Source: Porphyrobacter sp. CACIAM 03H1
GTDB lineage: Bacteria > Pseudomonadota > Alphaproteobacteria > Sphingomonadales > Sphingomonadaceae
Assembly (NCBI RefSeq): GCF_002215495.1
Contig: NZ_CP021378.1
Location: 186,001 to 250,000 of the forward strand
DNA: 64,000 bases
Direction: 5' to 3'
The translations under genes were made by a program, and so were the position numbers. This document shows positions 16,868 through 21,347 of the stretch, piece by piece. The stretch's first letter is position 1. Every line of letters begins with the position of its first letter. The notes beneath the pieces are model-generated. The model searched no databases and was not told the DNA's origin. It saw only the letters and a program-made list of their open reading frames with translations.

Positions 16868-18106
16868 ATGGCAACTGCTATGAACGACACCCTTGCCCAG
16901 ACTGAGCCGGTCGATCTGCTCGCCAAGTTCGATCCCATCATCCAGACTCGCGAGGCGCTGCTTGCCGCAGGGGTGGAGGATCCGTTCAACCTCGTCATGG
17001 AAAAGGTGCTCTCGCCCACGCAAGCGATATGCAACGGGCGCGACACGATCCTGCTCGGCACCTACAACTACATGGGGATGACCTTCGACGATGACGTCAT
17101 CGCCGCGGGCAAGCAGGCGATGGAGGATTTCGGCGCCGGCACCACCGGCAGCCGCGTCCTCAACGGCACCTTCCGCGACCACCGCGATGTCGAGGCGGCG
17201 CTGCGCGAATTCTACGACATGGACCACGCGATGGTCTTCTCGACCGGCTATCAGGCCAACCTCGGGATCATCTCGACGCTGGCAGGCAAGGGCGACTACA
17301 TCATCCTCGACATCGACAGTCACGCCTCGATCTACGATGGCTGCGCGATGGGCAAGGCCGAGGTCGTGCCGTTCAAGCACAACGACGTCGAGGCGCTGGA
17401 AAAGCGCCTGAAGCGCATCCCCGAAGGCGCGGGCAAGCTGGTTGTGCTGGAAGGCGTCTATTCGATGATGGGCGACGTCGCCCCGCTCAAGGAGATGGTC
17501 CGCATCGCCAAGGCCCACGGGGCAATGGTGCTGGTCGACGAGGCGCACTCGATGGGCTTCATCGGCGAGCACGGCCGCGGCGTCGCCGAGGAGCAGGGCG
17601 TGCTCGACCAGGTCGATTTCATCATCGGCACCTTCTCCAAGAGCGTCGGCACGGTCGGCGGCTTCTGCGTGTCGAACCACCCGAAGTTCGAGGTGCTGCG
17701 GCTGGTGTGCCGTCCCTACGTCTTCACCGCCGCCCTGCCGCCGAGCGTGATGGCGAGCTCGGCCACCTCGATCCGCAAGCTGATGCACGGCGGCAACAAG
17801 CGCGCGCATCTGTGGGAGAACAGCCGCACCCTTCACAAGGGCCTGCGCGATCTCGGCTTCAAGCTCGGCACCGACGAGCCCCAGAGCGCGATCATCGCCG
17901 TCATCATGCCGGATCTGGAACGCGGCGCGATGATGTGGGAGGCGCTCCTGAAGGAAGGCCTCTACGTCAATCTGGCCCGTCCCCCGGCGACCCCGGCGGG
18001 CATGACCCTGCTGCGCTGCTCGCTGTGCGCAGAGCATTCTGCCGAACAGGTCCAGACCATCCTCGGCATTTTCGAACGCGCCGGCAAGGCGATCGGGATT
18101 ATCTGA
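16868..18106 (+). CDS. spt: Serine palmitoyltransferase
   Basis: 412 residues of the alpha-oxoamine synthase family, condensing L-serine with an acyl thioester to 3-ketosphinganine, the first step of sphingolipid synthesis. PLP ligands are visible: Asp224 and His227 in VLVDEAHSMG and the Schiff-base Lys258 in IIGTFSKSVGTVGGF. The glycine-rich GAGTTGSRVLNGTF and MVFSTGYQAN are hallmarks of the soluble sphingomonad enzyme. It directly follows its ACP gene. This gene is the strongest taxonomic pointer in the window, since sphingolipids replace lipopolysaccharide in Sphingomonadales. Confidence 0.94.
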   Translation: MATAMNDTLAQTEPVDLLAKFDPIIQTREALLAAGVEDPFNLVMEKVLSPTQAICNGRDTILLGTYNYMGMTFDDDVIAAGKQAMEDFGAGTTGSRVLNGTFRDHRDVEAALREFYDMDHAMVFSTGYQANLGIISTLAGKGDYIILDIDSHASIYDGCAMGKAEVVPFKHNDVEALEKRLKRIPEGAGKLVVLEGVYSMMGDVAPLKEMVRIAKAHGAMVLVDEAHSMGFIGEHGRGVAEEQGVLDQVDFIIGTFSKSVGTVGGFCVSNHPKFEVLRLVCRPYVFTAALPPSVMASSATSIRKLMHGGNKRAHLWENSRTLHKGLRDLGFKLGTDEPQSAIIAVIMPDLERGAMMWEALLKEGLYVNLARPPATPAGMTLLRCSLCAEHSAEQVQTILGIFERAGKAIGII

Positions 18107-18689: not shown

Positions 18690-19169
18690 ATGGCCAAACC
18701 GCCCGGCAAGCGCATCGTCATCCGCCCGGGCCTGAAGGCCGGGGAAAGCGGGCACATCAACAACAACTGGCGCCGCCTGTTCCTCGATCACCTCGCCGAA
18801 AGCTCGAACGTCACCGCATCGGCGGAAAAGGCCGGGATCAGCGTGAGCCGCGCCTACAAGGTGCGGCGCGAGGAACCCGAATTCGCCCGCTAGTGGCTCG
18901 TTGCCCTCGCGGAAGGCTATCTGCACCTCGAAATGGACGTCGTGCGTCACCTGCGCGAAGGCGACGCACGCACCGCCGATGACGGCAAGTTCGACTTCGC
19001 CAACTCCATCCGCCTGCTGGCGGCCCACCGCAACACCGCCGCGCGCGGGGCCTGCGAGGTGCAGGATGTCAGCGCCGCCGAGGTGCGCGCCTCGATCGAC
19101 CGCAAGATCGAGGACATCCGCAAGCGCATCGCCCGCCAGCGGGCCGCCGCGGAAGCCAGGGGCCTATGA
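18690..19169 (+). pseudogene. Small-terminase-like gene with internal amber codon
   Basis: The ATG at 18690 has a good ribosome site (CAGGAG). The frame reads NVTASAEKAGISVSRAYKVRREEPEFAR, a helix-turn-helix typical of phage or GTA small-terminase proteins, and then hits TAG at 18891-18893. The same frame continues without another stop to 19169 (WLVALAEGYLHLEMDVVRHL and so on). A functional relative would be expected to have a sense codon, for instance AAG, in place of TAG. Its end overlaps the terminase gene start as ATGA. The C-terminal part has a coiled helix IDRKIEDIRKRIARQRA. Confidence 0.8.
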
Positions 19170-19622
19170 CCGGCCCCTTCAACGACATGATCTCCGACTT
19201 CTCGGAAGACGGGGACAAGCTGCGCCGCCAGGTCACCGAGGCGCTGGACCGGAACGAGCGCAACAGCTTCGCCTATCTGTGGGAATACACCGCGCCCGAG
19301 AACCAGCTCCCGCCCGAGGGTGACTGGCGCATCTGGATGATCATGGCCGGGCGCGGCTTCGGCAAGACCCGTTCGGGCGCCGAGTGGGTGCGGATGATCG
19401 CCGATGCCAATCCCGACGCCCGGATCGCGCTGGTCTCGTCCTCGCTGGCCGAGGCGCGCGCGGTGATGGTGGAAGGCGAGAGCGGGCTGCTGGCAATCTG
19501 CTGGCCGGGGCACAAGCCCCTGTTCGAACCCTCGCTGCACCGCGTCCGCTTCCGCAACGGGGCGCAGGCGCAGCTCTTCTCGGCGGCCGAGCCGGAAAGC
19601 CTGCGCAGCCCCCAGCACAGCC
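19166..19622 (+). pseudogene. GTA/phage large terminase, N-terminal fragment
   Basis: About 152 residues of the DNA-packaging ATPase remain: DWRIWMIMAGRGFGKTRSGAEW carries the Walker A motif, followed by ARIALVSSSLAEARAVMVEGESG and ending in EPESLRSPQHSHA. Relatives go on with Walker B, the rest of the ATPase and the nuclease domain; here these are missing because the sequence switches at 19621-19628 into a DUF2793 gene. The reading frame itself stays open to 20032, so a chimeric 288-residue product is formally possible, but it would include about 45 out-of-frame residues. Confidence 0.82.
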
Positions 19623-20032
19623 ATGCCTGCCGGTCAGGCGCAGAAGGAGTTCTTCGTCAACCAGGCACTCGGCCTGCTGGATGCCCTCCACGCCCGAGCG
19701 GTCATCGCGTCCCGCCCGGCACCGCCGGCCGCTGCTGCAGAGGGCGAGCCTTTCGGGTGACCGCCACGGCCACGGGCGCCTGGGCGGGCCACGAAGACAG
19801 CATTGCCATCCTGATCGGCGGTGGCTGGCACTTCGTAGCACCGGCCGAGGGCATGCTCCTGTTCGATCGCGATGCCGTCCGGACGATCATGTTCCGGTCG
19901 CAATGGGAGGTCGCGACAGCCCCTGTCATGCCCTCGGCAGGGGCGGTCGTGGACACCGAGGCGCGGGCCGCGCTGGCGGGGCTGATTCAGGCCCTGATGG
20001 CAATCGGGATACTCGGACCGGCCGCATCCTGA
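19623..20032 (+). pseudogene. DUF2793-type GTA tail-region protein, frameshifted
   Basis: Starting at 19623, MPAGQAQKEFFVNQALGLLD matches the start of DUF2793 proteins that lie at the far end of sphingomonad GTA-like clusters. This frame stops at 19760 (EGEPFG, stop). The family sequence resumes in another frame with RVTATATGAWAGHEDS, GGWHFVAPAEGMLLFDRD and so on to 20032, so one base has been lost near 19755. The gene is therefore broken, and it adjoins the start of the cluster because everything between has been deleted. Confidence 0.75.
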
Positions 20033-20201: not shown

Positions 20202-21347
20202 ATGCGCAAACTCATCATTGGGGCGGCGCTGGCGTCGACTGCGCTAGCTACGCCTGCCATGGCTCGTGAAGGCCAATGGTACATCGAGGGTAACGGCGGC
20301 GTCATGCTCGTCGAAGATCAGGACATCGACGTCAATGGCGCACCCGACGACGCTCGAGCAAATTATAACACGGGGTTCGATTTTGGCGCCATCGTAGGTC
20401 ACGATTTCGGTGCGTTTCGCCTTGAAGCCGAAGCAAGTTACCGCGCAGCCAACGTGGACGACGTCGCTGCTGGACGGCAGGGACTTCAGATCGACCCGAT
20501 CGGTAGCCCGGGCGGTCGTAATGGTCGTTTAACAAACCAAACCGCTCCGGCTCTTTGGGAGATTAACGCGCTCAGTTTCATGCTCAACGGCCTGTTCGAC
20601 TTCGGTTCGGATGACGGCCTTCAGGCTTTCGCTGGCGGCGGTATCGGCGTTGCCCGAGTGGATATGAACGCTCAGTTCGACCAACGCGGTCCGGGCGCAT
20701 ACGATGACTCAGACACCGGCCTCGCTTGGCAGCTTCTTGCGGGCATTCGAGCTCCGCTAAGCAAATCGTGGGATATTGGCCTCAAGTATCGCTACTTCAA
20801 CATGCCGGACATCGGCATTGTGGACACGATTGGACGTCCGCTCGAATCGAGCCTGACCAGCCACTCGGTCCTCGGCACCATCACCTACAACTTCGGTGGT
20901 GAAGAGCCGGCTCCGCCGCCGCCGCCCCCGCCGCCCCCGCCGCCGCCTCCCCCGCCGCCGCCTCCCCCGCCGCCCCCGCCGCCGCCGAAGGCGCCGTGCA
21001 ACACGGGCCCGTACATCGTGTTCTTCGACTTCGACAAGTCGGACATCACTGCGGAAGCCGCCGGCATCCTCAACAGCGCCGTCACCGCCTATGCGAACTG
21101 CGGCACTGCGAGCGTCATGCTGGCCGGTCACACCGACCGTGCGGGCAGCGCGAAGTACAACGAAGGGCTGGCCGAGCGTCGCAACACCTCGGTTCGCAAC
21201 TACCTGACCGGCCGTGGTATCCCGGCTGCCCGCATCACCGGGCAGGCCTTCGGCGAAACCAAGCCGCGGGTCCCGACCGCCGACGGCGTGCGCGAAGCGC
21301 AGAACCGTCGCGTGGAGGTGACCTACGGTCCGGGCTCGGGCATGTAA
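20202..21347 (+). CDS. OmpA-family outer-membrane protein with polyproline linker
   Basis: 381 residues. Signal peptide MRKLIIGAALAS...AMA (cleaved near residue 21), an N-terminal eight-strand OmpA-like barrel (GFDFGAIVGHDFGAFRLEAEASYR, then FMLNGLFDFGSDDGLQAFAGGGIG), a run of 25 consecutive prolines (20913-20987), and a C-terminal OmpA peptidoglycan-binding domain (YIVFFDFDKSDIT, LAGHTDRAGSAKYNEGLAERR, NRRVEVTYG). It should anchor the outer membrane to peptidoglycan. The ATG at 20202 follows AAAGGGGAAA. The barrel part has lower GC and a different codon style than the C-terminus. A strong terminator follows. Confidence 0.92.
   Translation: MRKLIIGAALASTALATPAMAREGQWYIEGNGGVMLVEDQDIDVNGAPDDARANYNTGFDFGAIVGHDFGAFRLEAEASYRAANVDDVAAGRQGLQIDPIGSPGGRNGRLTNQTAPALWEINALSFMLNGLFDFGSDDGLQAFAGGGIGVARVDMNAQFDQRGPGAYDDSDTGLAWQLLAGIRAPLSKSWDIGLKYRYFNMPDIGIVDTIGRPLESSLTSHSVLGTITYNFGGEEPAPPPPPPPPPPPPPPPPPPPPPPPPPKAPCNTGPYIVFFDFDKSDITAEAAGILNSAVTAYANCGTASVMLAGHTDRAGSAKYNEGLAERRNTSVRNYLTGRGIPAARITGQAFGETKPRVPTADGVREAQNRRVEVTYGPGSGM

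Follow-up and report, generated by a model that had tools for sequence, protein, structure and literature searches.

Among the closest described systems is the RcGTA-like head-tail cluster, in which DUF2793 is named as the GTA tail fibre (PMC10883770). The passages of that paper on gene loss describe GTA genes as lost in many alphaproteobacterial lineages, suggest that non-producing cheaters exist, and say that it is not known in detail what selection maintains GTAs (PMC10883770). In a modelling study, GTA costs exceed plausible recombination benefits, and the upkeep of GTAs is hard to explain (PMC6209664); their persistence despite producer lysis is an open problem. A second system is chromosomal curing by transformation, for which it is reported that 10-kb islands are removed about half as efficiently as base substitutions enter, and that 2-kb fragments suffice (PMC5850275).

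Here we describe a locus in a window of 64,000 nt, the whole stretch of DNA analysed (G000:C1:186001-250000), which is part of the 3.53-Mb single-contig genome of Porphyrobacter sp. CACIAM 03H1. It has GTA gene loss in common with the lost and pseudogenised RcGTA-like clusters, and intact relatives of the window genome likewise have terminase, further genes, gp15 and DUF2793, whereas the window retains just the two ends of such a head-tail cluster. The passages on loss in PMC10883770 present neither a fixed breakpoint nor a shared null allele or within-species presence/absence, while here one register occurs in at least 13 genera. As in the asymmetry described for transformation, we propose that short DNA without the island removes a long island through flanking homology; the published account concerns pneumococcal genomic islands (PMC5850275), whereas in our case a GTA cluster takes the place of the island, several genera have the deleted allele and we infer the curing. 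Among the papers listed in a literature search, titles and abstract openings gave no invariant GTA deletion and no GTA presence/absence within Sphingomonadales species.

Two half genes abut in the window

The large terminase of the window ends at 19,622-19,634 after SHA, and DUF2793 (AGQAQKE..) resumes 7 bases on in the +1 frame. The features of the region are as follows.

16868..18106, + strand: aminotransferase-like gene (query name als), presumably serine palmitoyltransferase-like; left-hand neighbourhood of both allele types (tblastn)
18690..19169, + strand: small-terminase-like gene belonging to the GTA cluster, interrupted by a premature stop codon (18,891-18,893)
19166..19624, + strand: fragment of the GTA large terminase comprising its N-terminal third (153 aa), Walker A kept, cut just before the Walker B region (between HA and WCDE)
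19625..19631, + strand: junction spacer GCCTGCC, 7 nt, of identical length and register in 28/28 deleted genomes of the genus, this register pattern being the criterion by which they were scored deleted
19632..20032, + strand: DUF2793 (tail-fibre family) gene minus its first ~20 codons, with a frameshift near 19,740-19,757
20202..21347, + strand: OmpA-like gene, lying to the right of DUF2793 wherever the fetched locus was long enough, in intact as well as deleted genomes (tblastn)

The frame 0 terminase ORF from 19166 reads ..AEPESLRSPQHSHA and then CRSGAEG, and the +1 frame MPAGQAQKEFF starts at 19,623. Relatives are matched by the terminase frame from 19,166 to SHA at 19,624, together with the GC of the next codon; the CAT at 19,622-19,624 is thus the final terminase codon in common with relatives, and the DUF2793 GGT codon lies at 19,632. 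Pfam matches and the ORF reading bear out the first-pass annotation in that a terminase half gene is abutted by a DUF2793 half gene. Positions 19166-19630 scored 26.5 bits against Terminase_6N (cut-off 22) and cover only profile positions 1-86 of 215, and positions 19751-20029, the C-terminal piece of the frameshifted gene, scored 45.9 bits against DUF2793 (PF10983), over the curated cut-off of 27; the piece at 19623-19757 scored 17.3 bits, under that cut-off. The small-terminase-like gene matched no Pfam family over cut-off. When its two halves were joined by X and searched by tblastn in the fetched loci, a match was found in 26/28 deleted and 54/54 intact genomes, the misses being G105 and G119, both fetched as short contig pieces. 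Because DUF2793 is frameshifted and the small-terminase-like gene has a premature stop, two defects that the first-pass annotation does not mention, the window's copy is decaying. The OmpA-like protein contains a proline run of more than 20 residues (window 20911-20990) preceding its C-terminal part.

Extent of the loss

In the intact relative G031, the terminase has 446 aa with both terminase domains (Pfam: ATPase and RNase H-like nuclease) and is followed by a run of open frames up to one of 727 aa, which we take to be gp15 in GTA numbering, and then by DUF2793 (MSDPVSFPTITPYLGLPLLIPGQAQKE..) and OmpA. The gap between the two junction points is 12,241-12,700 bp in 11 of the 12 intact genomes for which ~20 kb was fetched; in the twelfth, G019, ~1.5 kb lies between the points, owing to a different loss further on. 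With G031 gp15 and the terminase C-terminus as queries, none of the 28 deleted genomes, window genome included, gave a match at E 0.001, and all seven intact controls matched. The window genome has an N-terminal terminase fragment, the C-terminus was not found elsewhere in the genome and neither was gp15, and the terminase directly abuts DUF2793. As far as these two genes tell, the segment between the half genes was lost and not moved, and its relocation elsewhere in the 28 deleted genomes is ruled out for gp15 and terminase C.

What appears to be missing is a precise block, the GTA body: the terminase from Walker B on, the structural genes and the first ~20 DUF2793 codons. The deletion scar proposed in the first-pass annotation stands insofar as two half genes were joined through the loss of a segment that relatives still carry; it is not a scar of this genome's own. 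Judging from the loss of terminase C and gp15, deleted genomes should not make GTA particles.

Distribution of the deleted form

The terminase N-terminus matched in 91 of 114 genomes of the genus, and 89 of these were examined (G076 and G088 were not fetched), a genome being scored deleted when the pattern CAY-7nt-GGNCAR was present at the junction. This gave 28 deleted genomes, 54 intact across the point and 7 others: three end at the point in the fetched sequence (G083, G085 and G100), two are broken elsewhere (G010 and G126) and two carry a terminase-gp13 fusion (G090 and G128). Some of the 54 intact genomes have losses further on, by match positions (G019, G067, G111 and G116). Deleted species make up about a third of those scored deleted or intact at the junction (28/82), and since all have the identical join in the identical register, the junction is not a product of chance. 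An intact relative in which terminase and DUF2793 are naturally adjacent, which would speak against a deletion, was not found: the terminase is cut wherever the two adjoin.

Across the wider family, a terminase match was present in 309 of 397 genomes, and among the matches listed at least 22 genomes outside the genus had open frames of at most 300 aa. Twenty of these 22 were fetched, and 18 join DUF2793 at the junction point, of which 17 keep the register and the other has gained 1 nt by insertion; of the remaining two loci, G238 runs into other sequence and G368 stops with its contig. The 18 joined loci represent 12 genus codes, and with the window's genus the same deletion register is present in at least 13 genera. 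Protein lists gave a similar picture. Among the best 120 of 2,203 protein matches to the window terminase N-terminus, 71 were intact and 49 truncated, and all 49 truncated proteins break after SHA with tails that resemble DUF2793 in the other frame. In a second list (query G523, locus L324, best 120 hits), 34 of 41 proteins shorter than 400 aa break in the junction register, including P0141, which breaks two residues later in the same register. The other seven comprise P0128, which breaks earlier, and P0139, P0147, P0180, P0185, P0188 and P0220, which continue past the point and stop at other places, perhaps in some cases because the contig ends. Combining both lists (240 best protein hits), 83 of 90 terminases shorter than 400 aa break in the junction register.

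Beyond the family, open frames of at least 376 aa were found in 20/20 matched order-level genomes, 6/6 in f6 and 25/26 in f5, the f5 exception (G541) being a fragment match; because the flanking motifs differ there, these intact frames do not separate the two models weighed below. One of the 25 f5 genomes, G544, has a second terminase match (G544:C183:4665-5051) with a 190-aa frame ending at query residue 154, which may represent either a deleted form or simply the end of a contig. Scans of a viral collection yielded 226 loci, several from the same contigs, and none matched the deleted-junction expression, which probably reflects a bias of the viral collection.

Scatter over trees and near-identical flanks

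Deleted genomes are scattered. On an rpoB tree of 82 genomes (26 deleted rows), the deleted label takes 21 changes (the mean for shuffled labels being 22.4), and it takes 20 changes on the terminase N tree and 21 on the DUF2793 tree. Holding the deleted rows together was rejected on the terminase N and DUF2793 trees (p-AU 1e-48 and 7e-7), which rules out one clade of deleted genomes. On the terminase tree, many deleted flanks group with intact sisters (for example G117/G005, G101/G024, G071/G133, G021/G078 and G089/G066). The terminase C tree of 53 intact genomes retains rpoB groups, for example G024 with G133, G019 with G127, and G113, G123, G132 and G134, and is not identical to the rpoB tree; because it keeps several such groups, intact clusters look mostly vertical, with the deleted state appearing at many tips. 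The terminase N tree conflicts with rpoB in deleted, intact and mixed sets alike, and so this conflict does not separate the models. Terminase N and rpoB distances correlate at 0.93 in deleted species and 0.73 in intact species. G114 and G115 are 0.7% apart in rpoB and 8% apart in the terminase fragment, which suggests recombination at the locus in one of the pair, and the GTA terminase N-terminus of G033 clusters with G005/G117, unlike its rpoB, which suggests that this locus was replaced horizontally.

Moreover, both forms occur with nearly the same flanks. For ten of the 49 truncated proteins, the first 150 aa are at least 98% identical to those of an intact partner, and for two of the ten the identity is 100% (P0005 with P0006 and P0007; P0039 with P0044), and the top truncated/intact pairs of the second list reach 99.3% and 98.5%. 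At the DNA level, the intact contig IMGVR_UViG_3300043466_004587 and deleted G107, taken as Porphyrobacter sp. LE19-196.1G, align on the left over 2,731 nt with one mismatch, which is in the spacer, and on the right over 407 nt with zero mismatches, that is, 99.96-100% flank identity over 3.1 kb. Apparently one species carries both the intact and the deleted allele; this was the one same-species pair among the viral contigs compared. A trans-species polymorphism would call for both alleles within several species, of which one is seen at the DNA level, beside the ten protein pairs. For the window's own species, no intact allele was found among the best 120 of 2,203 matches, the nearest intact protein being 92% identical in the N-terminus.

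Spacer sequence and breakpoint

In the same-species pair, the deleted sequence is CAGCCACGCTTGCCGGACAGG, the terminase CAGCCACGCCTGGTGCGACG and DUF2793 CTGCTGTTTGCCGGACAGG, and the LE19-196.1G cut lies between CACGC and TTGCC, with a TG one base on that is common to both in the same register. Apart from this TG in LE19, no common core at both ends in a fixed register was seen by eye; the exchange point shifts over several bases and the register is constant.

Of 8 close pairs of a deleted genome with its nearest intact relative, 5 have the same codon before GQ (1.3 for random relatives), and of all 24 pairs 8 do (3.9 for random ones), this comparison using 24 of the 28 deleted genomes (G000, G004, G105 and G119 were out). 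Of five measures against the nearest intact relative, just this codon and, in close pairs, its first base stood out; spacer positions 3-4 matched the nearest intact relative no better than random ones in the 24 pairs. Positions 3 and 4 are linked to each other (Fisher p 0.002, 45 spacers). A haplotype common to deleted alleles was not seen beside the junction, and the sequence there gave no signal that the deletion had travelled together with a common flank.

In G090 (L139) and G128 (L140), which are species from different clades, the terminase is fused in frame, after SHA, to the Cys-rich C-terminal portion of gp13 (CRAxFCGPGC); the fusion point is the same in both, and gp15 and DUF2793 are retained. 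Their fusion has the left cut of the junction. A two-step path via gp13, in which a terminase-gp13 fusion is followed by a gp13 to DUF2793 exchange, was rejected in that it could yield GCNTGCC spacers and not GCTC ones.

Origin of the junction

The same register across genera, the non-clade distribution, and flanking protein or DNA of both forms at 98-100% identity are facts that hold under either of two models. We give a probability of about 0.5 to the reading that a GTA-null allele with a single old origin exists alongside the intact cluster, its flanks overwritten by recombination, and that the junction in the window genome is one copy of it; the single origin in a family ancestor, persistence as an alternative allele and spread by homologous recombination are what we infer in it. 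An ancestor in the family would have undergone the deletion a single time, after which the deleted allele would have persisted beside the intact cluster and, through homologous recombination, moved within and between species. A fragment of 2-4 kb with the join, homologous on both sides, could delete the 12.7 kb body, and fragments from intact strains would replace the flanks of deleted ones as far as the heterology boundary. Flanks would thus track the species, while the 7-nt spacer would keep the register, and deleted cells may be non-producers (cheaters) among producers. A single old allele would give a fixed register without a special enzyme, and overwriting recombination would account for flanks of local type, for the small number of broken copies and for the low dN/dS of the terminase fragment.

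Several observations weigh against the old allele. Recent transfer would show as a shared haplotype at the join, and there is none; the linkage of positions 3 and 4 and the local codon preceding GQ fit fresh local joins at least as well; and intact clades look mostly vertical, with a single same-species DNA pair and none intact found for the window's species. The two alleles may be an ancient producer/non-producer polymorphism maintained across speciation.

A tentative second model, somewhat less probable than the old allele, is that the GTA body is cut out repeatedly at one register by a hypothetical site-specific process, which would use either a recombinase or paired nuclease cuts followed by end joining. 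Such excision, with ~20 independent occurrences in one genus and others in no fewer than 12 further genera, would possibly make non-producers out of producers, the domesticated virus being lost in a programmed manner or at a hot spot. The ~20 changes on three trees fit repeated exact deletion, as do flanks local to each lineage and the 99.96-100% identical flanks in one species; the spacer looks like a mosaic of local terminase and DUF2793, the left cut recurs in a different deletion in G090 and G128, and most deleted copies have few disabling mutations, as if young. However, terminase and DUF2793 show no visible homology at the join, the exchange point varies under a constant register, and positions 3-4 resemble the nearest intact relative no more than random ones. 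We know of no recombinase, motif or homology that accounts for the fixed register.

A single null allele that is recognisable, widespread in a family and apparently present beside the intact cluster in one species would supply natural pairs of producers and non-producers, and the diagnostic junction would let frequencies, fitness and gene flow be measured directly in genomes and metagenomes. The deleted allele may be a natural form of cells unable to make the agent.

State of the remnant

Most deleted copies are open and have few disabling mutations, and the NG86 dN/dS of the terminase fragment is 0.03-0.22 in seven deleted-deleted pairs. These values would be expected if the remnant (small terminase, terminase N fragment and DUF2793) were a domesticated functional module under selection, but a young deletion or refreshed flanks would also give low dN/dS. 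The small terminase or terminase N is disabled in 3/28 deleted genomes (G000, G099 and G101) versus 0/54 intact ones (Fisher 0.03 on 26 deleted, no small terminase having been found in the two short-piece genomes), and DUF2793 is broken in G000 and G004. Moreover, DUF2793 is left without its own start: its frame at the junction has ATG in 13/28 deleted genomes (window 19623 included), ACG in 14 and ATT in one. We therefore regard a domesticated module as unlikely.

Least credible, and refuted as a private event, is the one-step deletion through a short microhomology in this genome that the first-pass annotation had drawn from the abutting half genes, since the join recurs in 27 further species of the genus as well as in 18/20 truncated loci fetched from other genera, and since the intact DUF2793 reads ..LPLL(I/F)AGQAQKE (e.g. 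CTG ATC GCC GGT) and not MPA. The CATGCCTG microhomology was therefore dropped; several identical bases at both intact breakpoints were not found, and in the same-species comparison CACGC is joined to TTGCCGG with zero shared bases at the cut.

Outside the locus, PF20057 (DUF6456), which is presumably linked to GTA regulation, was present in 57/57 genomes and is uninformative because these include eight without a terminase match.
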